In this document: piece by piece, positions 26,878-38,670 of the stretch
How positions within the stretch are numbered: the first letter of the stretch is position 1
How the letters are laid out: each line of letters starts with the position of its first letter
Assembly (NCBI GenBank): GCA_001464795.1
Contig: LNEB01000012.1
Location: 1 to 64,000 of the forward strand
Source: Bdellovibrionales bacterium Ga0074139
GTDB lineage: Bacteria > Bdellovibrionota > Bdellovibrionia > Bdellovibrionales > Bdellovibrionaceae
Reading direction: 5' to 3'
Length of the DNA stretch: 64,000 nt
Program-made: the position numbers and the translations under genes
The notes under the pieces: model-generated
What the model was told of the DNA's origin: nothing
The model's database searches: none
What the model saw: the letters and a program-made list of their open reading frames with translations, nothing else

Positions 26878-27099
26878 AACAGGACCTTTCGTTGATTAAA
26901 GCCACCTTAAAGCAATCTGGTGAAATCACACCTGTTAGAATTCTAGACAGTAAAAAAGTAAGGAGTCTTTCGTCACATCGTCTAAAATTGATACATCTTA
27001 CACGGTTGATAACGAATCTAACAGGGGGTGACTCTGGCACTTGGATCGCAACGAGCCTCGGAGTGGTCATGAAATATTTTAAAGAAATGGAAACTTAAA

Positions 27100-27816
27100 A
27101 TGAAAAAAACTTTTTTGAATCTTACAATTTCAACAGTTGTTATGATCGGAGCCTCTACAAGTTTTGCTAATACCCAAAAAAGGAACGAGGAAAAAGCGGC
27201 TGGCCTTGTGATGGGAAAAGTCTTAGCTGCCATCGACTTTAAGTCTTCACAATTTTCTCTTAATTTTTTTGAAGGTGCATTTTTTAAGAAAAATAAAGAC
27301 ACCAAATCTTCATTGAGAATTGATTCCATGCATGCAGATGCCTCTATTAAATTTAAAAATGATGTGATTATTGATACACAGGATTTTTCCAAAGAAATGT
27401 CTGCTGAAAAAAAGCAAAAAAACCAGGAATGGCAACCTAAAATATCTTTGCTTTCAAAGGATCTGTCTGTGCTATCGGCCTTGGATGCAGACAGCAACGA
27501 CAAACTTAAACTAACCATCTTCTTTAAAAAAGCGAATGATAAAGCTGACAGTGGACTTAAAATATTAGTGGGAAACAGTTACAACCAAGAGCTGATCAAC
27601 ATGAATCTGGTTTCGATCAATGTGATATTAATTACAGACCCCAATTCCACGGCAATGAATGTCAGAGGATCTTGTTTGGCTCGTAAAAAGATAGCAGGTC
27701 AGATGCAAGATATTCCTCAGTGTACTTTTAGCGGTGTGGTGGATTCAGAAAATGACACCTACAATATTAACGTTAATTTCGGTGATAAAAAACAAGCCAC
27801 TCAAAAGCTCAACTAG
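27100..27816 (+). CDS. Unknown exported protein
   Basis: A 238-residue protein with a signal peptide (MKKTFLNLTISTVVMIGAST, cleavage near SFA-NT). The mature part is Lys-rich with beta-prone segments and a single CLARKK...PQC pair of Cys that could form a disulphide. It has no recognised domain. It is the first of three exported proteins encoded in a row (27100, 27834, 28613) and probably acts with them. A weak GGAA precedes the start. Confidence 0.6.
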   Translation: MKKTFLNLTISTVVMIGASTSFANTQKRNEEKAAGLVMGKVLAAIDFKSSQFSLNFFEGAFFKKNKDTKSSLRIDSMHADASIKFKNDVIIDTQDFSKEMSAEKKQKNQEWQPKISLLSKDLSVLSALDADSNDKLKLTIFFKKANDKADSGLKILVGNSYNQELINMNLVSINVILITDPNSTAMNVRGSCLARKKIAGQMQDIPQCTFSGVVDSENDTYNINVNFGDKKQATQKLN

Positions 27817-27833
27817 TTGGGAAACGTAAATAA

Positions 27834-28616
27834 ATGAAACAGGGCTTGGTTCTTATTTCAACACTCATTCTTTTAGGGCTTCCAGCCTGGGGAACCAATG
27901 ATGGCCAGCCTTGGCCAGAAAAAGCTTTGACTGCAGAAAGCCAGCCAATCAGTTACCAAATTATTAAATTGGCCTTTTTCAATTTTGAGAAATTTTTAAA
28001 AGAAACGCTTAAAATGGAAAGCCAAATTTGCCAGTACACAAGCTTGGTACAAAATAAAACCTATAATTATCCAGAGACCGGAGCCTGCATTTATCGATTG
28101 TTGCTGGATTCGGTGAAGTCTCAAAGTCCACAGTCCCCGGTTTTTATTTGGGCTAAAACCATCGAAGGCCAACCGCTTTTGCTACGTCTTGACTGGCATC
28201 CTCAATTCAATAATTTTATGGAAGTTTATACTCAATTAATGGAAATGAAGTTTGAAAAGCCCATTCATTACTATAATAAGCGCGCCATGAAATTTCTTAA
28301 AATTGATTTTGAAAAAAGGGGTTACGGTTCCTCAACTTCTTTGGTCGGACAAATTTCAATCACGCTTAAAAGCCAACCTGAAACTGTACAAAATTTGATG
28401 GCTCTTGTTTCAGACCCCTTAGCTCAGCACATAAAAGTTGATAAAATATCTGTGGAATTGAGTCCTCATGGAAGACACAAGGACTACTTGAATCACAAAA
28501 TTTCAGTCAAAATCTGGCCCTCTGAAACTTCGGAATTTTCACACTTTCAGCTGACAACTAATGTTAATCTGCTGGATCCCAGTCGCACCTTCATTATCAG
28601 GCAGGACTCAAAATGA
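27834..28616 (+). CDS. Unknown exported protein
   Basis: A 260-residue protein with a signal peptide (MKQGLVLISTLILLGLPAWG). The mature part has a QICQYTSLVQNK...GACIYRLLLDS region with two Cys, then a C-terminal half of alternating beta segments (VDKISVELSPHG, KISVKIWPSET, HFQLTTNVNLL) that is similar in style, not in clear sequence, to the next protein. It ends by a 4-base overlap with the next gene. The function is unknown. Confidence 0.6.
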   Translation: MKQGLVLISTLILLGLPAWGTNDGQPWPEKALTAESQPISYQIIKLAFFNFEKFLKETLKMESQICQYTSLVQNKTYNYPETGACIYRLLLDSVKSQSPQSPVFIWAKTIEGQPLLLRLDWHPQFNNFMEVYTQLMEMKFEKPIHYYNKRAMKFLKIDFEKRGYGSSTSLVGQISITLKSQPETVQNLMALVSDPLAQHIKVDKISVELSPHGRHKDYLNHKISVKIWPSETSEFSHFQLTTNVNLLDPSRTFIIRQDSK

Positions 28617-29329
28617 AACAACTTTTAAGTCTCCTTTTTCTATTGAGTTCTCAGGCTTCACTGGCTGCGAACTTCCTGCCATGCTTTTTAAGTGGTCAGG
28701 AAATTTTAGACAAAGCCACAGAAATCAAATCTCAACACAGCGAATTTCCAGAAGCTTATATGAACCAAATTGAACTGAGTATGAATCTCTCTAATTTAGG
28801 ATCCTCTTATTCCGGTGTTGTTGAGGGATTCTACCGTCCAATAAAAACACAAACTTTTTCCGTCATCCCTGAAACCATTATCGGAGTTGAGCTCAATAAA
28901 AAAAGTCATTTGGTTTATGTTTGTGCCCAAGTGGATTCGGATAAAAACTATGCCATTGATATTTTCTTTTTAGGTCACAAACCTCATATGGATGAAATCA
29001 TTCCTGTTTTTAATTCTTTACTTCTCAGTGACCAGGTTAGAATTAGCCCCCTACAGATTCGTGTCCTAAATATTGATTCGGGAACTGATAATAAAATTAT
29101 TAATTTCCTAAAAATGCTGTTTTTGCCTATTTATTTGCAACTTAAACTTTTCAATCAATTTGCTAATATTTTTACCGGAGCCTTTGGCGTCAGTATCGAG
29201 CGGGTCCGTATTATGAATAATATCGTTGAAGTTTCAGGTGGCATAAACATGAAAAATCCTGATCAACCACGATTTTTTAAGCGCATCGATTTGAAGTCCA
29301 AGGAAGCGGAAATCATCAAAGCTGACTAG
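28613..29329 (+). CDS. Unknown exported protein
   Basis: A 238-residue protein with a signal peptide (MKQLLSLLFLLSSQASLAAN). The mature part holds NFLPCFLSGQEILDKA and a later VYVCAQVDS, giving two Cys. A hydrophobic stretch NFLKMLFLPIYLQLKLFNQF at about residues 162-181 could be membrane-associated. It is translationally coupled to the preceding gene and ends 113 bp before the acyltransferase start. No family is recognised. Confidence 0.6.
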   Translation: MKQLLSLLFLLSSQASLAANFLPCFLSGQEILDKATEIKSQHSEFPEAYMNQIELSMNLSNLGSSYSGVVEGFYRPIKTQTFSVIPETIIGVELNKKSHLVYVCAQVDSDKNYAIDIFFLGHKPHMDEIIPVFNSLLLSDQVRISPLQIRVLNIDSGTDNKIINFLKMLFLPIYLQLKLFNQFANIFTGAFGVSIERVRIMNNIVEVSGGINMKNPDQPRFFKRIDLKSKEAEIIKAD

Positions 29330-29400
29330 TTAGCATGACAAAAAAAGGCCACTCGTCTAATGAGGCACACTATTTTCAAATAGGTTGCTGCCCGGCATGG

Positions 29401-29439
29401 CATACAACTCGCAATGTAATATTTACATCGAGGTGTATG
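29401..29439 (+). promoter_or_regulatory. Hairpin covering the ribosome binding site of the acyltransferase gene
   Basis: CATACA pairs with TGTATG, CTCG with CGAG, and ATGTAA with TTACAT, around a TAT loop; one A/G mismatch and a 2-nt bulge interrupt 16 pairs. The AGG at 29431-29433, about 9 nt before ATG 29443, lies inside the right arm. If formed in the mRNA it would hide the binding site. It could instead be a weak terminator for the upstream operon, but no T-run follows. Confidence 0.45.
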
Positions 29440-29442
29440 TTT

Positions 29443-32355
29443 ATGAGACACGTGCGTTTAATATTAAATCTGGCTCTTTCCATTACAAGCTCTCTTGTCA
29501 TGGCCTCTGATTTTGATTCTTACCGCAATTTTAAAGCATTAACAGACACACCCGGTATGACTTTCTACCATCCAGGATTGTTCTTTGCCGGCGAAGTTGA
29601 AATCAAAGAAATTCCTGAACTCCCCTACCTCAATTCTAAAACAAACAACGACATTCAAAAAAGTGCCTGGTTTCTTGAGTCCATTGGAGTTGCTACTGCC
29701 GTGGGCGATAATTCGGGTCGCGATAGCCAATTTGATCTTTACAATCCAGTTTCCATCGACATCGGCCGCAATGAACCATCAGTGGAACTTTCAGTTCCGC
29801 AAAAGTCCCGTGAAGCAGAAGTGGGAAAATGGCATTTTGGAACCCATGATGCTTGGCACTTAGCTTACATCCCTGGTCCCAGACTCAGCGACATTTCTAC
29901 TCCAGAGAAAATAAGAGCTTCAAAAGATAGACTCGTTCATCATTTACTACTGATCGAAAGCTATGCCACCACTTTAAGCGGAAGTCGCCATGCCAGGGAT
30001 TACTGGAATTGGAGAAACAAAGTTAACGGAGCTGAAAACACAGAAGAGTTTGAAAGATTGAATAAGGGTCTTTATTCTATTTCGAATATGTCCGAGTCTG
30101 ATTTTTTTGACATCATTAAAGCTGTTATGTTTGGTGAGGTCAGAAATTTTTCAAAAACCTGGAATCAAAATTTTGATGCAAAACTTTATGATGAGTCTAG
30201 AAAAGCAGGTGTTCCCATGCTTTTCCCAAGTTTTCAAAAAACGCTTGGTGATAAAGGTGAAAAATTATTTCTTAAATATGGATTTGGTACTGTTGCAGGT
30301 CTTGCTAACTATTTAGCTCCAGCCAGTGGCTACGGATACCAAATGTTTAAAGCTTACGCTCGAATGCAAGCCGATTACTACTTGCAGCCTTGGTACGTGA
30401 AATGGGCTGATATGTATCAAGTGGGATTAGATTTTGATGCCGCTGATGCAAGGCTTGCAAAAATCATTCAAGACTTACGCAATAATCAAGTGATGCATGA
30501 TGTGAAAAAGCCAGAAGCCGGTGTTTTTGAAATGATGCATACGAAAAACTCCAGTGAACAACTGGGTCGAAGAATCATTGAGTTTTTAGAGCTTGTAAAA
30601 AATAACCCCTCTGAATTTCCTAGGGATTTGAATCAAAAATTGGAAGGTCTTTTAAAATTAAGCCACAACTTGCATAACGAAATTCTAAAAGAAATCAAAG
30701 GCCACACACGTTTTTCTCAAGAGCAGGTTAATTATTTCCGCAATGCTTACAGCGAACTGACTCAAATGGCCGAGCAACAAATTCCCATCGAGAAATCCTT
30801 ACCCTTAAAGCTTCGCCTACCCATGGCTGATTATAAAACCTATTGGAACAATGCCTACGGTGTTATTTTACCCAGACCCTCAGGAATGACAAAATTTTTA
30901 TCAGCTCGTGGAATCTGGGAATCCGCAAGAAAACAAAGAGCCGCTAGAATTCGCTCTGAACTTAAGGGTGTTCCTTTTGTGAATGTGATGCCTGAGGGTG
31001 AAACCATTGATGATATCGAAAAAAGAATGGGAATAATTTATGACGGTCGTCGTTCTGGCCGTCCTGTGAATGTTAATAGCTCAAGTGATGCGAGTGAGTA
31101 CCTTAATTCCATAGATAGAATCAAAATGACTTTTGCCTACCAAGCCCGGCAAATATTTCTTGGTCAAATCAGAGAATACAGTGAACTTTCGACACAAGAA
31201 ATTAAACAGGTCTATGAAGCGACTGAATCACTTGTTCAATCCATGGATTTAGCTTTAGAACAACATAAATCCAATTATAAAGCTGTCTTTGTCAGCCGAA
31301 ATGCAAGCTCTCAAGTCAAAGCCGATTTTTTACGAATGGAAGGCAATCTGAAATGGGCCACTGATCAGACTTTGTTTATGATGGCAGACATTTTAGATCT
31401 CAGTGATTTTGGAAAACCAGTTAAAGCTATAAAAAAATACTTGAGCTTTGCTAATCAAATGACAACAAAATTAAACTCTAAAACTGGGTTTATTATCCCC
31501 AATTTTAAAAGTTACGCAAGCTACCTTTTCCCCAAAGACACTTCCAGAATTAAATCACTTTGTTCGATGCTGACTCGGATGTGTTTTAACTCCAACATCA
31601 GTGACATCGTTAAAAGTGTATCCAGTGATTTGAAAATAGCTCAAGTTGCCAATTTGAACCTTAAAGACATTCCAAAAAATGCAGCTCTGATTTTAATCAT
31701 TAATCATGACTCACCTATCGAAGATATACGAATGGCTCAACTTGTAGCTGAAAAAATGGGGCTTAAAGAAAACAATGCCATTTTAACAAGCAAAAGAAAT
31801 TGGCCACAGCAAAAATTATTTTCTAATTCTGACAAAAGTATCCTATTTGCAGATGATGCCAATTTATCTGCTCAAGTTTTAGAAAAACTCTCCTCCCAGA
31901 GGGCCTCTCCGTCTGTAACAATATTTCCTGAAGGCAATACTCCAGGTCAACACTCTCAGTTTCCATTATCAGTGAAGCCTGGTGCCTTCTCATTAGCTAG
32001 GAAAGCGGCTGTGGCTTTAGCTGAAGTGAAACCTGTCTATTTGGTGACGGTCACGACCAATATGCTAGCCCACGTTACAGCCCATGCTGAGCTTTCAGTT
32101 TCTGTCACTCAGGTGACTCAAGTTCCTACTCATCCCATCAGCTCCAATGACGAATGGGTCAGCAGCCAAAGACTCGCCTTTGAAAATGCCGTCTCTATAA
32201 TGCGAGGCCAATCACAAGTGGATCTCATTCACCGCAGCCGAACAGGTTCAGGAACTCGTTTCGCAACAAAAGTGAAAGAGTATATTCCAGGAACCCAAGC
32301 GATGGAGACCATCGGGGATTCTTGGAAAAAAACTTGCCGTGAGGTTGTTAAGTAA
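29443..32355 (+). CDS. Large exported protein with C-terminal PlsC-like acyltransferase domain
   Basis: About 970 residues from ATG 29443, chosen because it starts a clean signal peptide (RHVRLILNLALSITSSLVMAS) with AGG 9 nt upstream. The first 700 residues are mostly helical and unrecognised. At about residue 753, ILIINHDSPIED replaces the NHxxxxD block of glycerolipid acyltransferases with HX4E then D, and at about 827 VTIFPEGNTPGQ resembles the FPEGTRS block. The C-terminal 250 residues are therefore a deviant PlsC-like domain, apparently exported rather than cytoplasmic. Its 3' end overlaps a patatin gene tail-to-tail by 8 bp. Acyl transfer, and its target, are inferred. Confidence 0.6.
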   Translation: MRHVRLILNLALSITSSLVMASDFDSYRNFKALTDTPGMTFYHPGLFFAGEVEIKEIPELPYLNSKTNNDIQKSAWFLESIGVATAVGDNSGRDSQFDLYNPVSIDIGRNEPSVELSVPQKSREAEVGKWHFGTHDAWHLAYIPGPRLSDISTPEKIRASKDRLVHHLLLIESYATTLSGSRHARDYWNWRNKVNGAENTEEFERLNKGLYSISNMSESDFFDIIKAVMFGEVRNFSKTWNQNFDAKLYDESRKAGVPMLFPSFQKTLGDKGEKLFLKYGFGTVAGLANYLAPASGYGYQMFKAYARMQADYYLQPWYVKWADMYQVGLDFDAADARLAKIIQDLRNNQVMHDVKKPEAGVFEMMHTKNSSEQLGRRIIEFLELVKNNPSEFPRDLNQKLEGLLKLSHNLHNEILKEIKGHTRFSQEQVNYFRNAYSELTQMAEQQIPIEKSLPLKLRLPMADYKTYWNNAYGVILPRPSGMTKFLSARGIWESARKQRAARIRSELKGVPFVNVMPEGETIDDIEKRMGIIYDGRRSGRPVNVNSSSDASEYLNSIDRIKMTFAYQARQIFLGQIREYSELSTQEIKQVYEATESLVQSMDLALEQHKSNYKAVFVSRNASSQVKADFLRMEGNLKWATDQTLFMMADILDLSDFGKPVKAIKKYLSFANQMTTKLNSKTGFIIPNFKSYASYLFPKDTSRIKSLCSMLTRMCFNSNISDIVKSVSSDLKIAQVANLNLKDIPKNAALILIINHDSPIEDIRMAQLVAEKMGLKENNAILTSKRNWPQQKLFSNSDKSILFADDANLSAQVLEKLSSQRASPSVTIFPEGNTPGQHSQFPLSVKPGAFSLARKAAVALAEVKPVYLVTVTTNMLAHVTAHAELSVSVTQVTQVPTHPISSNDEWVSSQRLAFENAVSIMRGQSQVDLIHRSRTGSGTRFATKVKEYIPGTQAMETIGDSWKKTCREVVK

Positions 32356-33070
32356 ATTGAAGTGCCTTTTTGGTTTGCGCGTAAGAAAGCCGAATGGCAT
32401 CACTGGCCAAGTGCATGCGGTTCGGCCCCATACTGATGGACTCATCCTGCTGAAAGAAAAACGTGTTTTGAGTTTTTCTTTTGAATGAACTTTGAATAAT
32501 AATTTTTTTTCCAAAACCATCAGGTTTTAGAAAGTGCACAAGGGTGCGATTCTTGTAATAGGGATTTTTTGTGCCAGTCCAGTCTGTTATTCCACCGTCC
32601 ATATAATATTTGCCAGCGATTTGAACAGGTTTAAAAAGTAACGGAAAACAGCATGATGCTCGAACCGGTTCAATTAAGTCACCCGTTTGAAAACTTCGAG
32701 TGCTGAGTGATTTCACTTCAAAAGTAGAAACACTTAATGGAATTTCTAACTGATTAAAATCAGCAACTAAATACTGCGACAAAAGTTTTTTAAACTTTTG
32801 ACCTTCAAGAATACCCATTCCTGGTTTAAAATCCCAAAAATCTTTTTTTTGAATACGACAAAGTAGCTCTTCGATGGATTTTGAATCTTGACCGGAAGCG
32901 AGTAAGCTTCCAATCAAAGCCCCGGCACTGGAACCCATGATGGCTTTAGGGCGATAGCCCTCTTCAAGAAGGGCTTTAACAAAGCCACAATGAGAATAAA
33001 AACCAAAAAAACCAGCTGATAAAGCCAGTGAAAAATCACCTTGTTCGAGCCACTGCCGTAAGTGTGTCAT
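32348..33070 (-). CDS. Patatin-like phospholipase
   Basis: A 240-residue patatin-domain protein. The nucleophile elbow is MGSSAGALIG (Ser48 in GSSAG) and the Asp of the dyad is in YMDGGITDW. The oxyanion region reads LSAGFFGFYSHCGFVKALLE, departing from the usual GGGxRG. DFWDFKPGMGILEG is typical of bacterial members. No signal peptide is present, so it is cytoplasmic or delivered by another route. It should release fatty acids from phospholipids. It lies convergent to the acyltransferase fusion and divergent from the phospholipase D-like gene. Confidence 0.85.
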   Translation of the reverse strand: MTHLRQWLEQGDFSLALSAGFFGFYSHCGFVKALLEEGYRPKAIMGSSAGALIGSLLASGQDSKSIEELLCRIQKKDFWDFKPGMGILEGQKFKKLLSQYLVADFNQLEIPLSVSTFEVKSLSTRSFQTGDLIEPVRASCCFPLLFKPVQIAGKYYMDGGITDWTGTKNPYYKNRTLVHFLKPDGFGKKIIIQSSFKRKTQNTFFFQQDESISMGPNRMHLASDAIRLSYAQTKKALQFT

Positions 33071-33106
33071 TTTGATATTGAGCCCCAGAAAGACCTCATT
33101 GTCAAA

Positions 33107-33139
33107 AATTGGCTTTGGCGAATGTTTGATCAGCCAATT
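33107..33139. promoter_or_regulatory. Inverted repeat between divergent lipase genes
   Basis: AATTGGCT (33107-33114) and AGCCAATT (33132-33139) form a perfect 8-bp inverted repeat with a 17-nt spacer in the 132-bp region shared by the patatin and phospholipase D-like genes. It is a possible operator for a dimeric regulator. No regulator gene is adjacent. Confidence 0.35.
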
Positions 33140-33202
33140 GTACTTTATTCAACCTTGGGCTGGAACAAGAATCGCAAGTGAATAGGTAACTCGAGGTATT
33201 CA

Positions 33203-34675
33203 TTGAAATTGACTCTTATACTGCCCCTCTTCTTAGCTTTAACGACTTTTGCAAGTCCACCGGCCATTGATTGCAGAATTTCGGTCAATGAGAAAAAATC
33301 CATTGTTTCGCAAAACTTAGTTGACCCTGAGACATTTGTTTTATCAAAACCCATTCCCGTTCGTGCCCAAGACATACATTTACAAGTACTTCCTAAACAG
33401 GCTTATCAAGATCAGATTTTTGCACTGACCGGCGAGTATTTACCACAATCAGTCATCGACTCCTCAAATTTAAATTATAAATTCAAATTTGACAATGCTC
33501 CCAAGCTAGATCTTGTTGTTCTCTCAACTTTGTACGCACGCTATGATTTTACCAGCCACTATTTCGCTCAGGCTTTGAAGTATCACGTTGATCAAGGAGC
33601 TATGGTCGTATTTGCAGCAGCCAAAAGTGTGATCGATTTTGCAAAACTCACTTCGCCTGGTAAAGTCCCTGTGACAACTCAAAAAGATATTGATTTTATG
33701 AAGTACCTCTCTGATATGGGAGTTGAGGTTCATGTCCTTGGTCCCAATGATGTGGTGCCAAACAGATTTAATAAAATTCAAGGCTTTTTAAAAGCCATGC
33801 ATGCAAAAGCTTTTGCTGTGTTTTCACTTTCAGAGCCAGAAAAAAGTCAGGTTTTCATTGGCGGTCGAAACAAAGCCGATCCCTATTACTTGGAAAACTG
33901 CCCTGACCTCAGTCAATGTGCACATATGCTACAGTATAAAACAGAATCAGACTGGATGAATGTGGCTGACTTTGATGTTTCCATAAAAGATCATCAATTC
34001 ACTCGCCAAGTGATTGAAGACTTCGGTCTTATATTTCCCGATTCTACAAAACAAAAACTTAAAAAAATAACTGAAAAGCCCGCCTCAACCCAAGTGAGCC
34101 GTAAAGTTGAGGATTCAAAAAATGTAAAGATAACAAACTTTTTATCAGTTTCAGGAAAAGACTTAGAACTGCTTTATGTGAACACCATTGATAGCGCCAA
34201 TGAAAAAATAAGAATTTTGACACCTTACTTTAATCCAACAAAAGAAATAGCTAAGGCATTGAACCGAGCCCTGAAAAGAAATGTGAGTATCGAAATCGTC
34301 ACCAATATCTATTTGCACGGTGATGATTTTTCTCCATTGATCGTCAGTGCCATCGAGTCTTTTAATCAAATGGGACTTTCTAAATTAGGTAAGGGTGTCA
34401 TTCTTAGGAACTGGGAAGCTCCTAGTTTATTTCACTCCAAGGTCTTGCAAGTGGACAAGGACACCATGATGGTAACAAGTGTAAATATTAATAATCGAAG
34501 CTTCAAAAAAGACATTGAAAATGGTGTTGTCATTGAAGGTAAAGAAGTCAGTGATCAATTCAACAAAGAAGTTTTTGAAAAACATATCTTACCTCACACT
34601 CAAGTGATTGATGGTTTTAATCAGCCAAAACTTCTTTATCGATTACTGTATTATTTTTTTGGTCATCACTCTTAA
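33203..34675 (+). CDS. Exported phospholipase D-like protein
   Basis: A 490-residue protein of the PLD/cardiolipin synthase superfamily with a signal peptide (MKLTLILPLFLALTTFAS). Two HKD-type sites are visible. HAKAFAVF (His200, Lys202) lacks the usual Asp four residues on but is followed by IGGRNKADPY. HSKVLQVD (His411, Lys413, Asp418) is complete and followed by TSVNINNRSF. The start is TTG 33203, 6 nt after GAGG. It probably acts on phospholipids or nucleic acid outside the cytoplasm; the substrate is open. Confidence 0.8.
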   Translation: MKLTLILPLFLALTTFASPPAIDCRISVNEKKSIVSQNLVDPETFVLSKPIPVRAQDIHLQVLPKQAYQDQIFALTGEYLPQSVIDSSNLNYKFKFDNAPKLDLVVLSTLYARYDFTSHYFAQALKYHVDQGAMVVFAAAKSVIDFAKLTSPGKVPVTTQKDIDFMKYLSDMGVEVHVLGPNDVVPNRFNKIQGFLKAMHAKAFAVFSLSEPEKSQVFIGGRNKADPYYLENCPDLSQCAHMLQYKTESDWMNVADFDVSIKDHQFTRQVIEDFGLIFPDSTKQKLKKITEKPASTQVSRKVEDSKNVKITNFLSVSGKDLELLYVNTIDSANEKIRILTPYFNPTKEIAKALNRALKRNVSIEIVTNIYLHGDDFSPLIVSAIESFNQMGLSKLGKGVILRNWEAPSLFHSKVLQVDKDTMMVTSVNINNRSFKKDIENGVVIEGKEVSDQFNKEVFEKHILPHTQVIDGFNQPKLLYRLLYYFFGHHS

Positions 34676-34700
34676 TGCCAATTTGTCACGGGATGGCATT
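34674..34700 (+). terminator. Probable terminator after the phospholipase D-like gene
   Basis: AATGCCA (34674-34680) and TGGCATT (34694-34700) form a 7-bp stem with a 13-nt loop, followed by TATTTG. The hairpin begins at the stop codon. Confidence 0.45.
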
Positions 34701-34772
34701 TATTTGTAAATTTATTGCGTTCTACTGACTAGCTCAATAACCTATTTCTGATCCAATGCGATTGGAGACAGG

Positions 34773-36116
34773 TTGATTAACAGACGGCATTTTTTAAAAG
34801 CAGCAGGCCTTATCAGTATCGGTGCTATGGTTGATGCAGATGTCACAACTGAAGAAACCGAACAACCCATTGATCTTGATGCCTTGGTATTTTCCCCCAC
34901 GCAAATCCGCTTTGTTCAAGGTGCCACCAATGCAAATTCCACACTCATTTCAATTCTTGCCCATAAAGACTATGCGGATAACATTGATATTTTTGATCAA
35001 AATAAAAACTCCATCGCTTTTCAGCATAAGCTGATCGACTTCAAACTTTCTGAATTTGTCATTCATCAACTTTTTATTGACGGTTTATCCATTCAGAACG
35101 AATACAGTCTTCTTGTGACAAGTAAAAAATTGTCCACTGCCAGCCAGAAAAATTTCAAAACCTTGGATTGGAATCGTCAGGACTATAAAATTGCTTTCTT
35201 AAGTTGCTCAAGCCACAACCACGGCGAACCCACTGTCATGAGCAATATGGAAAAAAAATTGAATCAATCCAATTCCGACGTACTGTTCTTTTTAGGTGAC
35301 GCAGTTTACGCTGACACCTCCAGAGATGTGGTCGCCGGTCGTCCAGCCACTCCTGAAAATGCCTACAAGCTTTATGTCAAAACACTGATGGAACTGGGAC
35401 TTTATAGTTCCGATCGATTAAAGCCAATTTTTGCCATCTTTGATGATCATGATTTAGCTTATAACGATGCGGATTCTAACCATCCCCATCTGAATCTAAT
35501 GACTCAAATATTTCGTGCGATCTACCCCGTTGATCATCGTATCAACGGAATTTCCATGGGGCCTGGCTGTGCTTTTTCCATGAAGGCTTTTGGATGGCGC
35601 TTTGTTTTTATCGATGGTCGCAGCTTCCGAGATGGCAACAGATCTGTTTTCCTGGGTCCTAGGCAAATGAATTGGTTAAATACACTGTTGCAGAATGATA
35701 GCTCACCTTGCTTTTTTATTTCGTCTCAACAATTTTTTAATTATAAATTCTTTTCTGAATCCTTTGAAAAAACTTCTCCTGAAGAACTTTCTGAATTCAT
35801 AAAATTCATTAAAAATCATCCCTCTCCTTGCGCTTTTATGGCCGGAGATGTTCACTATTCGCAAATTCATGAAATTGACAAGTCCACGTTTGGATATACG
35901 ACCTACGAACTCAGCTCGAGTGCTTTTTTTAGTCTTTCAGCCAAACAATTTGGAAAAAGATCCGTCAGAAATGGACAACTGGCCTACTATGGCTACCCCA
36001 ATTTCATTGAATTTAAACAAATCAATAATACGGCTAGCAGTATTCAATTCCAACTGACCTGTGTATCGGAAAAAAATTCGAAGGAATTTGAAATGCAACT
36101 CAGTATTACTAAGTAG
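34773..36116 (+). CDS. PhoD-like metallophosphatase, Tat-exported
   Basis: A 447-residue protein starting at TTG 34773, with GGAG 5 nt upstream. INRRHFLKAAGLISIGAM is a twin-arginine signal. Metal-site blocks match PhoD-type alkaline phosphatases/phosphodiesterases: FLSCSS at the domain start, FFLGDAVYAD, FDDHDLAYND and FMAGDVHYSQI. Such enzymes release phosphate from phosphodiesters in the periplasm and work with phospholipase D products. Neighbouring genes are lipid-active. The 3' end overlaps an esterase gene tail-to-tail by 8 bp. Confidence 0.85.
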   Translation: MINRRHFLKAAGLISIGAMVDADVTTEETEQPIDLDALVFSPTQIRFVQGATNANSTLISILAHKDYADNIDIFDQNKNSIAFQHKLIDFKLSEFVIHQLFIDGLSIQNEYSLLVTSKKLSTASQKNFKTLDWNRQDYKIAFLSCSSHNHGEPTVMSNMEKKLNQSNSDVLFFLGDAVYADTSRDVVAGRPATPENAYKLYVKTLMELGLYSSDRLKPIFAIFDDHDLAYNDADSNHPHLNLMTQIFRAIYPVDHRINGISMGPGCAFSMKAFGWRFVFIDGRSFRDGNRSVFLGPRQMNWLNTLLQNDSSPCFFISSQQFFNYKFFSESFEKTSPEELSEFIKFIKNHPSPCAFMAGDVHYSQIHEIDKSTFGYTTYELSSSAFFSLSAKQFGKRSVRNGQLAYYGYPNFIEFKQINNTASSIQFQLTCVSEKNSKEFEMQLSITK

Positions 36117-37122
36117 TTAAAAAACGTAACCATTCTTTGCGAAATTTTTGTCCAGCCATAGAATACAACGAAACATCAAATCCGTGGGTTTGATAAGGAA
36201 GTGTTAAAGACTTCACCGAATGATTCGTTTTATCTAAACTTTCTGCCAAAAGGACCGAATGGACCGGATCAACGAATGGGTCAAAATCCCCACTCAAGAT
36301 AAAAAACTTTCTTGTCTGGGGCTGTATGGCTTTCGTCAAATCAGGATAAGTTGGCGTTTCATTTATTAAAAGTTTTTTAACGATTTGCTCTGATTTTAAA
36401 ATGGCATTGGATCCAGGCTCTTGGGACCACGCCATGATATCAATAATCGGATAGAGCAAGGAAACAGATTTTATTTTTTCTTCAGAGGCCAGCGAATGAG
36501 AAAGCTGTCCTGCCAAGTAGCCACCAGCCGATCGACCTAGCAGATGAAACTCTTGAGGCAAAAAGTCAGCCCTTTTCAATTCCATGACTTCCTTTGTACC
36601 TTCAATGAGATCATTTAAGGGACGTGGCCAAACACCATCAGGAAGATTTTGATAAGGTAAGGCCACCACATGAAAGCCCTGACTTCTTAAAAAGCTTTGT
36701 AAGTAAGAAAGCTGACCAGGACCCTCAGCTATAAATCCACCACCAAAAATAACTAGCACACAGGGAGACTGTGGACTTGGTCCTCGGTAAAAGTGAGCCT
36801 TACCACTTTTTAATTTCCATATTTCATTGGGCCGAGACCAAAAAGCAGGAAGATAGAAAAACATCGAGAACCAAGAAAAAGGTCTATCGAATCTATACTT
36901 AAAATAAACAATTAAAACATGCCCCACAAGTACCGCAATCGAAACAAAGTGAAATTCACTGGGCCTTACAGCGAATATTAGAAGGTTCAGAACCAACAGT
37001 GGACCATAAAAACAACTGGCGAATAAGGATAAACCCCAAGTCAGCCTTGTCATGGGTTTTATCCAACAAAAAAGAACGGAAATTAAGGTTAAACTACTGA
37101 TGAGCTGAATCAAATAAATCAA
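36109..37122 (-). CDS. Membrane-anchored alpha/beta hydrolase (HSL-like esterase)
   Basis: A 337-residue protein. The first 75 residues hold two or three transmembrane segments, and the rest is an alpha/beta hydrolase with IFGGGFIAEG at 125-134 (oxyanion HGGG-type motif, here FGGG), nucleophile Ser198 in LLGRSAGGYLAG, an Asp candidate in SGDFDPFVDP and His in QTHGFDVS. The layout fits the hormone-sensitive lipase family of esterases. It is probably tethered to the inner membrane; the side of the membrane is uncertain. Confidence 0.75.
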   Translation of the reverse strand: MIYLIQLISSLTLISVLFCWIKPMTRLTWGLSLFASCFYGPLLVLNLLIFAVRPSEFHFVSIAVLVGHVLIVYFKYRFDRPFSWFSMFFYLPAFWSRPNEIWKLKSGKAHFYRGPSPQSPCVLVIFGGGFIAEGPGQLSYLQSFLRSQGFHVVALPYQNLPDGVWPRPLNDLIEGTKEVMELKRADFLPQEFHLLGRSAGGYLAGQLSHSLASEEKIKSVSLLYPIIDIMAWSQEPGSNAILKSEQIVKKLLINETPTYPDLTKAIQPQTRKFFILSGDFDPFVDPVHSVLLAESLDKTNHSVKSLTLPYQTHGFDVSLYSMAGQKFRKEWLRFLTT

Positions 37123-37181
37123 TTAAACCCTCGCTCCAGAGTTCACTGGACATGGAAATAAAATCTTATTAGCTTTATATT

Positions 37182-37613
37182 ATGACTAATAAAAATAAAC
37201 TTTCATCCCTTTTGTCAGAATATGGTCTTTCTCATGAAAACCCTGTGAATCAAAAAATCCACAAAGTTTGTGTACCGCTTATTTTACTTAGTTTACTTGG
37301 ATTATTAGGCCAAATACCAGGGCCTTCCCATTGGGCTTCTTACGCTCTTATTGCTTTAGGACTTCTTTACTACTCTCAGTTCAAAAACTTAAGTGTGTTT
37401 GTGGTCATTCTATCGCAAGTGATCCCGATGATGGTGGTGATCCACCTTTTAAGTCATCACAGCTATCAGTTATGGCTTGGAATATTCATTGTGGCTTGGA
37501 TCGGGCAATTTATCGGGCACAAGATTGAGGGCAAAAAGCCCTCTTTTTTAAAAGACATTTTCTTTTTACTGATTGGACCTCTGTGGGTCTCTAAAACATT
37601 TTTGAAATATTAA
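37182..37613 (+). CDS. Mpo1-like / DUF962 membrane protein
   Basis: A 143-residue protein with four to five hydrophobic segments. YGLSHENPVNQKIHKVCVPL near the start and WIGQFIGHKIEGKKPS near the end match the YxxxHxxxxNxxxHxxGxP and QFIGHxxxExxxP signatures of the DUF962 family. The yeast member Mpo1 is an iron-dependent dioxygenase in alpha-oxidation of 2-hydroxy fatty acids, and the conserved His residues are its likely metal ligands. A fatty-acid role fits the lipid-enzyme neighbourhood. It ends overlapping the lipoprotein gene at 37610 by 4 bp. Confidence 0.8.
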   Translation: MTNKNKLSSLLSEYGLSHENPVNQKIHKVCVPLILLSLLGLLGQIPGPSHWASYALIALGLLYYSQFKNLSVFVVILSQVIPMMVVIHLLSHHSYQLWLGIFIVAWIGQFIGHKIEGKKPSFLKDIFFLLIGPLWVSKTFLKY

Positions 37614-37915
37614 GAATTAATACAATAGCCGCGCATACGAATTTTATTAGTCCAACTGAAAAATCCTAAAGATGTACTATAGCGTGTATTAATGCCCTCA
37701 ACTCGCCCTTTAGGACATTGTTGTTTCAATTGATCATAAGCCTGGTTCACGTAGTTGGTTTCCTGAGCAAACCCTAGAATCACTTTTTGCTGAGTCATCG
37801 CTTCGATCAACTGACCTGAGCCTCCGTTTTGATCAGTGGCTTGGTAGAGATGCACACTGTGAGCACAGGCTGAAAGAACTGAAAAAGCAAAAAGAAGAGA
37901 TAATTTTTTTAACAT
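37610..37915 (-). CDS. Small lipoprotein, paralogue 3 of a tandem trio
   Basis: A 101-residue lipoprotein: MLKKLSLLFAFSVLSACA gives a lipobox LSAC. The mature part ends LKQQCPKGRVEGINTRY...GYCINS, shared with the two genes upstream (QCPKGRVEGI block, and GYC near the C-terminus), so these are diverged copies. The two Cys may form a disulphide. It is the last gene of the thrS-infC-lipoprotein run. The function is unknown. Confidence 0.7.
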   Translation of the reverse strand: MLKKLSLLFAFSVLSACAHSVHLYQATDQNGGSGQLIEAMTQQKVILGFAQETNYVNQAYDQLKQQCPKGRVEGINTRYSTSLGFFSWTNKIRMRGYCINS

Positions 37916-37924
37916 TTTAAATCC

Positions 37925-38233
37925 TTAATTTTTTGCTACACAATAGCCGTCGGCAGAGGCCTTCAAATTATACGCAAAAAGTGGAAAGTAAGTTATGACT
38001 TCATACTTTGTTAAAATGCCTTCGACTCGGCCTTTAGGGCACTGTCTGGCCAAATCCATCACCATATTGTCCACATACTTGTTATCAAAATTAAATAACA
38101 TAAACATGAAACGCTCTCCCACCGCACTGACGGGTTTTGACCGCTGAGTGGGAATGGCCGATGTGGAGACACTTGATAAATGAGTGCAAGACATCAGAAA
38201 AAAAGCGCTTAAAATTAATAATAGACTTTTCAT
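37925..38233 (-). CDS. Small lipoprotein, paralogue 2 of a tandem trio
   Basis: A 102-residue lipoprotein with MKSLLLILSAFFLMSCTH (lipobox LMSC). The C-terminal half has LARQCPKGRVEGILTKY and ends DGYCVAKN, parallel to its neighbours. A short N-terminal mature stretch is Ser/Thr-rich. It lies 9 bp from paralogue 3 and 2 bp from paralogue 1, so the three are surely cotranscribed. The function is unknown. Confidence 0.7.
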   Translation of the reverse strand: MKSLLLILSAFFLMSCTHLSSVSTSAIPTQRSKPVSAVGERFMFMLFNFDNKYVDNMVMDLARQCPKGRVEGILTKYEVITYFPLFAYNLKASADGYCVAKN

Positions 38234-38235
38234 AA

Positions 38236-38670
38236 TTAAGATCCTTTTTGGCAGTAGCCAGTAATGCGGACGATTTCCCCGCTGACAACCGGGTATTTGG
38301 CCGTTTCACGAATGGATGTCAGTCCACTGATTTTTCGACTAGGACATTCGAGCTGGATGGCTCGCATGATGGAATCCGCGTATTTTTCATTGAAAACCAT
38401 ATTGCCTGTGCGTGGCCCCATTTGAAACATCGATATGATATCGTTGATCTGTTGCATTTCTTTTCGAGTTTGCTGGCTTTGAGTGAAAAGTTTGGCCGTA
38501 TCCGCTGCTTCTTGTAAATTCACGCCAGTTTCACTGACTATGATCTCAAATTTTTTACCAGTCATAACGGCTTCTGAATCAATGGAGCTCATTTGAAACT
38601 GGTGTAAAAAAGCACAACCATTTAAAAATAAAACAGCTAAGGAAAGAAGAACAAGATTATTCTTCTTCAT
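38236..38670 (-). CDS. Small lipoprotein, paralogue 1 of a tandem trio
   Basis: A 144-residue lipoprotein with MKKNNLVLLSLAVLFLNGCAF (lipobox LNGC). The C-terminus IQLECPSRKISGLTSIRE...GYCQKGS is the most diverged version of the CPxxxxxGI/GYC block. It has about 40 more residues between anchor and block than its paralogues. Its start lies 14 bp inside infC, so its translation is tied to that of initiation factor 3. The function is unknown. Confidence 0.7.
   Translation of the reverse strand: MKKNNLVLLSLAVLFLNGCAFLHQFQMSSIDSEAVMTGKKFEIIVSETGVNLQEAADTAKLFTQSQQTRKEMQQINDIISMFQMGPRTGNMVFNEKYADSIMRAIQLECPSRKISGLTSIRETAKYPVVSGEIVRITGYCQKGS

Follow-up and report, generated by a model that had tools for sequence, protein, structure and literature searches.

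A candidate acyl-exchange module of an exported HX5D acyltransferase, an HSL-type esterase and a patatin in Bdellovibrionota

Six genes for predicted lipid-active proteins

The stretch of DNA analysed here (the window; 64,000 nucleotides of Bdellovibrionales bacterium Ga0074139) carries six consecutive genes for predicted lipid-active proteins, designated ACYL, PAT, PLD, PHOD, HSL and MPO (Table 1). An earlier reading made from the sequence alone (the sequence-only reading) had described them as neighbours on alternating strands with acyltransferase-like, patatin, phospholipase D-like, PhoD-like, hormone-sensitive-lipase (HSL)-type esterase and Mpo1/DUF962 domains, and this description was confirmed. 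All six passed the curated Pfam cut-offs, as Acyltransferase PF01553 (ACYL, E 1.1e-8), Patatin PF01734 (PAT, E 8.8e-31), PLDc_2 (PLD, E 1.3e-22), PhoD (PHOD, E 5.4e-11), Abhydrolase_3/HSL (HSL, E 6.5e-13) and Mpo1-like/DUF962 (MPO, E 3.7e-16), and the expected catalytic motifs were found in the acyltransferase, patatin, PLD-like and HSL proteins. The GxSxG serine and the DGG of PAT were invariant across eight aligned relatives, PLD contained the motifs HxK...GGRN and HSKxxxxD...NRSF, and HSL displayed the set expected of its type, namely an FGGG oxyanion loop, GRSAGG (GxSxG), DFDP with the Asp and THGFD with the His.

Table 1. Features of the locus, with positions in the window
Feature	Position	Strand	Description
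ACYL	29443..32355	+	exported protein of two domains; open frame from 29335, probable start ATG 29443
ACYL N-terminal domain	HDxxH motif 29842-29859		no Pfam match
ACYL C-terminal acyltransferase domain	NHDSPIED 31702-31725; FPEG 31924-31944		HX5D motif (NHDSPIED) and FPEG block
ACYL HX5D residues	H755/D761		numbered from ATG 29443
PAT	32348..33070	-	lipase of the patatin family, no signal peptide; nucleophile motif GSSAG 32921-32935; DGG 32588-32599
HSL	36109..37122	-	hormone-sensitive-lipase-type alpha/beta hydrolase; three N-terminal membrane-like segments
PLD	33203..34675	+	exported phospholipase-D-superfamily protein, two HxK motifs; bystander
PHOD	34773..36116	+	PhoD-like phosphatase, twin-arginine signal; bystander
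MPO	37182..37613	+	Mpo1-like/DUF962 membrane protein; bystander
Accessory segment (island)	27000..38650		between L,D-transpeptidase (YkuD) gene and infC
Three exported proteins, unknown family	27100..29329	+	directly upstream of ACYL, leading into its gene
Three consecutive small lipoprotein-like ORFs	37610..38670	-	between MPO and infC

The assignment that three of the proteins are exported also held: hydropathy profiles revealed signal-peptide-like N-termini in ACYL (from the start at 29443) and PLD, and PHOD has a twin-arginine signal. In the same profiles, HSL had three membrane-like stretches and MPO two, and no signal-peptide-like or membrane stretch was seen in PAT. The strand alternates along the six genes, which make up at least five transcription units and so do not constitute one operon; the convergent pairs ACYL/PAT and PHOD/HSL each overlap by 8 bp.

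Conservation of the gene set and a recurrent trio

The six proteins were searched singly in 60 relatives, and all window proteins were then mapped onto 17 neighbourhoods. None of the 60 relatives carried the complete set of six, and a conserved six-gene membrane-digesting pathway was rejected, the more so as the whole segment is missing in both same-genus genomes. PLD homologues, which share about 25-33% identity and mostly come from open frames of about 590-790 aa, are common in Bdellovibrionota. Homologues of PhoD were found in 42 of the 60 relatives and those of Mpo1 in 19; all three families are at other locations, and a second PhoD copy lies on contig C14 of the window genome itself. A pattern search of genome contigs with the PLD protein alone found no relative. 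No linkage of PLD, PhoD or Mpo1 to the acyltransferase was seen elsewhere in the relatives or the mapped neighbourhoods; these three are island co-residents, neighbours by position only.

These data bear on the proposal of the sequence-only reading that a predator digests prey membrane stepwise with the patatin, PLD, PhoD and Mpo1 enzymes, the acyltransferase re-using the chains. The presence of all six domains, the export of three proteins and a host from a predatory lineage agree with it. However, neither set nor order is conserved, three of the families are common ones located elsewhere, and PAT has no export signal, while HSL and MPO are membrane proteins, so that these three are predicted to act in the cytoplasm or membrane. 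In addition, most genomes of Bdellovibrio genus g6 lack the acyltransferase, and thus the genes are not a general requirement for prey-membrane digestion. We consider a six-enzyme digestion pathway very improbable. Of the series it invoked, an acyltransferase working with deacylating enzymes fits the comparative data, whereas the head-group, phosphate and odd-chain steps were unsupported.

A smaller association did recur. The acyltransferase family is rare: among 369 genomes from the phylum, 12 have a member, and in two of these the assignment depends on weak matches. When the window HSL and PAT proteins were used as blind queries in the 60 genomes, both matched within about 1 kb of an acyltransferase gene in genome G030, and HSL matched within 5 kb of two acyltransferase genes in G053. 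Four Bdellovibrionaceae loci combine acyltransferase, HSL and patatin genes in differing orders: the window; Bdellovibrio sp. UBA4095, where the order is HD-AC-HSL-PAT with overlapping gene ends (AC, acyltransferase family; HD, an exported HDxxH protein that matches no Pfam domain); B. bacteriovorus kdesi, sequenced as a complete chromosome, with AC-HSL-PAT-HD; and Bdellovibrio MAG_58, where a patatin gene diverges from a gene for a 998-aa ACYL-type fusion and HSL lies beyond the fusion, at the contig end. In G053, HSL is accompanied by two genes each for HD, AC and exported GxSxG-type proteins, and G089 has the same content scattered over contig ends. Other hydrolases also neighbour AC copies, namely a GDSL lipase in G056 and a serine-hydrolase-like exported protein in G053.

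HSL-like genes lay within 6 kb of acyltransferase or N-terminal-domain genes at 7 of 18 loci and at 0 of 102 controls (p 5e-7); the HSL profile was built partly from the tested loci, and with these seeds removed the count was 3 of 14 (p ~0.001, by hand). In phylogenetic trees, the MAG_58 acyltransferase grouped with that of the window (88/94) and the MAG_58 patatin with those of UBA4095 and kdesi (99/94). Because the two proteins group differently, the parts of the module may have been reshuffled while staying together, a tentative suggestion given the long branches. Separately, we noted that the UBA4095 cluster (L090:9694-11110) adjoins a tRNA-Met gene and a phage-type integrase near a contig end, and that the kdesi patatin ORF (L125:7658-8326) seems to lack the usual in-frame N-terminal stretch before the nucleophile, possibly through a frameshift or a divergent start.

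The N-terminal domain of ACYL (residues ~1-520; hereafter, N-domain) recurs in 10 of the 369 genomes. In G209, G211 and G218, distant Bdellovibrionota of another family, it stands alone as an exported protein, and its gene overlaps or lies next to that of an exported acyltransferase, with an Abhydrolase_3 gene alongside. The partner acyltransferase belongs to Pfam Acyltransf_2 and carries NHPLSGxD, which is also an HX5D motif. The G211 hydrolase was missed at the threshold of the linkage test, yet is Abhydrolase_3 by Pfam. In G164, the protein encoded after the N-domain has a serine-hydrolase-like GLSGG motif. Homology of the neighbours in these four genomes to the AC family was not supported by profile comparison (2%), and three of them are instead Acyltransf_2 by Pfam. 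Since the partnership thus recurs with different acyltransferase families, it provides the best evidence of a functional link. No segment of an initial acyltransferase alignment was conserved well enough to scan the collection with.

Chance accumulation of unrelated hydrolases within a variable island would account for the alternating strands, for the free-standing relatives of PAT and HSL and for the lack of linkage of PLD, PhoD and Mpo1 elsewhere, and for these last three it stands. For the trio, it is disfavoured by the rearranged co-occurrence in three other genomes and by the recurrence of N-domain, acyltransferase and HSL in another family of the phylum; as an explanation of the locus, we regard it as improbable. 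Together, these comparisons support a candidate three-part module of an exported acyltransferase, an HSL-type hydrolase and, in Bdellovibrionaceae, a patatin. The claim of an undescribed lipid-active system is therefore retained for the acyltransferase and HSL, with patatin, as recurrent neighbours, and dropped for the six-gene set.

Possible function in envelope-lipid acyl exchange

We compared ACYL with characterised acyltransferases. Nearly all complete AC proteins have NH[DE]xxxxD and P[EQ]G; their HX5D is one residue longer than the HX4D of PlsC, which was not found. ACYL resembles the PlsC/AGPAT enzymes (PF01553, TIGR00530) in the profile of its C-terminal domain, the H..D pair and the FPEG block, and differs from them in HX5D, a signal peptide and the long N-terminal domain. 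It scored 35.3 bits against PF01553 (cut-off 23; residues 775-906), close to the G361 homologue (34.7 bits), whereas its score against TIGR00530 was 21.2 bits, far under the curated cut-off of 102.95; the Pfam scan did not report PF01553 for the MAG_58 homologue. HX5D also characterises fungal GPATs (PMC4207751) and is used by the sulfur-aminolipid acyltransferase SalA (PMC8319176), which shares an FPEG-type second block with ACYL.

The SalA signature raises the alternative that the module synthesises a special envelope lipid, such as an acylated amino-, sulfo- or glycolipid or a wax/sterol-like ester, instead of remodelling or digesting lipids. An island-type distribution would suit an accessory surface lipid, and the AC copy of G302 sits between sugar-nucleotide genes. 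However, the four core clusters lack genes for head-group synthesis, and export is unusual for a biosynthetic acyltransferase; SalA itself is not described as exported in the accessible part of PMC8319176. We consider this alternative unlikely.

A tentative preference, held at somewhat less than even confidence and derived from comparative sequence analysis, goes to an accessory Bdellovibrionota module that would serve for the extracytoplasmic exchange of envelope-lipid acyl chains. Its core would be the exported HX5D acyltransferase, the HDxxH N-terminal partner domain and the membrane-anchored HSL-type esterase, to which a patatin-type lipase would be added in Bdellovibrionaceae. In the periplasm or on the outer membrane, the exported ACYL protein would transfer an acyl chain to a hydroxyl acceptor, whether a lipid or not. 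Since an enzyme outside the cytoplasm is not expected to meet acyl-CoA or acyl-ACP, transacylation from a phospholipid donor, as in tafazzin, would be the most economical route. Tafazzin is a PlsC-like phospholipid transacylase of the mitochondrial intermembrane space, acting where acyl-CoA is absent. The likeness is one of analogy only, that of a PlsC-like enzyme swapping chains between phospholipids without acyl-CoA; tafazzin differs in having HX4D, in being mitochondrial and in lacking companion HSL and patatin genes. HSL and PAT are predicted to be in the cytoplasm or exposed to it; on this inner side, they may strip acyl chains from products that are over-acylated or of the lyso form, and the net effect would be acyl exchange on envelope lipids, either the predator's own or the prey's.

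Several observations weigh against such a module. In the window, the genes lie on alternating strands and PLD and PHOD split HSL off from ACYL and PAT, so that co-expression is not evident. Some loci, a few of them at contig ends, have no adjoining HSL or PAT (the G053 fusion, G100, G361, G302 and G056), and conversely PAT and HSL occur without the acyltransferase, as free-standing relatives. The export and topology calls come from hydropathy only, and both AlphaFold models were too poor for inspection of an active site (pLDDT 45.6 and 47.1).

The nearest published proposal is that of the CapCone-2 two-gene systems of Bdellovibrionota, within the Lipocone superfamily (PMC12419801), and the match in gene context is striking: the neighbour in a CapCone-2 system is an alpha/beta-hydrolase, patatin, acyltransferase or outer-membrane barrel gene, and neighbours of the first three kinds occur here. 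All aligned HD proteins have HDxxH, as do most proteins with the N-domain; the motif is degenerate in the G053 and G089 fusions. The CapCone-2 glycine six residues before the helix-2 histidine was found in the window protein only; its relatives have Leu or another residue, and the HD family has none. Of the helix-4 S/GxxSxx preceding an Asp, the window protein has SNMSESD, and the others keep only Ser/Thr/Ala-x-x-Asp/Glu. Profile searches against solved structures returned nothing meaningful. The module further differs from CapCone-2 in having at least three genes and an acyltransferase fusion. We therefore note a resemblance to CapCone-2 systems without assigning membership, although the N-domain or HD proteins may be among those counted in PMC12419801.

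This resemblance suggests a further alternative, in which ACYL, with HD in UBA4095 and kdesi, is a Lipocone/CapCone-2-like toxin or an effector that breaches the outer membrane of another species, the hydrolase, patatin and acyltransferase being co-secreted as proposed in PMC12419801. The xD three residues before the histidine, as in the CapCone clade, and the patchy, island-like distribution are consistent with such a weapon. However, most members lack the glycine and only partly keep the helix-4 serine, PAT and HSL lack a cleavable export signal by hydropathy, and no immunity-like partner was seen. We judge a weapon to be rather unlikely.

Homology between HD and the N-domain was not supported by profile comparison, which gave a probability below 1% even with 16 HD sequences, and the HDxxH that they have in common is taken as a motif only. 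Free-standing HD-family genes (L262, L266, L268 and L270) adjoin apparent short-chain dehydrogenase genes in several Bdellovibrionota, and L270 has a patatin-like gene near the HD gene.

Returning to acyl exchange on envelope lipids, a more specific version is possible, if doubtful: the module may be an undescribed extracytoplasmic system built on a new HDxxH lipid-active domain. An exported HX5D acyltransferase, either fused to this domain or coupled with it, would act on predator or prey envelope lipids together with a patatin and a membrane esterase, and different acyltransferase families would have been recruited to the domain independently. To our knowledge, extracytoplasmic acyl transfer without CoA or ACP has rarely been documented in bacteria. 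If the module works as proposed, predatory bacteria could swap the acyl chains of envelope lipids in the periplasm or bdelloplast, and a role would be assigned to a domain without a Pfam model. The module is an accessory trait of only a few Bdellovibrio strains, kdesi included.

The accessory segment and its margins

In both same-genus genomes, the L,D-transpeptidase gene adjoins infC, with 365 and about 220 bp between them, and nothing occupies the site at which the window genome has about 11.6 kb. Because the flanking genes adjoin in both, the 27.0-38.6 kb segment appears to be an accessory insertion in the window genome. The alternative, loss from both relatives, is less favoured, given how rare the acyltransferase is. 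The GC content of the segment is about 0.37-0.42, against 0.38-0.46 outside, slightly below that of the left flank. No tRNA gene was found at either end, and no integrase was noticed at the island.

The ACYL-to-MPO genes are bordered within the segment by two groups of three genes (Table 1), neither of which had a relative among the comparison loci. The three lipoprotein-like ORFs have a common C-terminal motif ending in GYC, for example QCPKGRVEGI...GYC.

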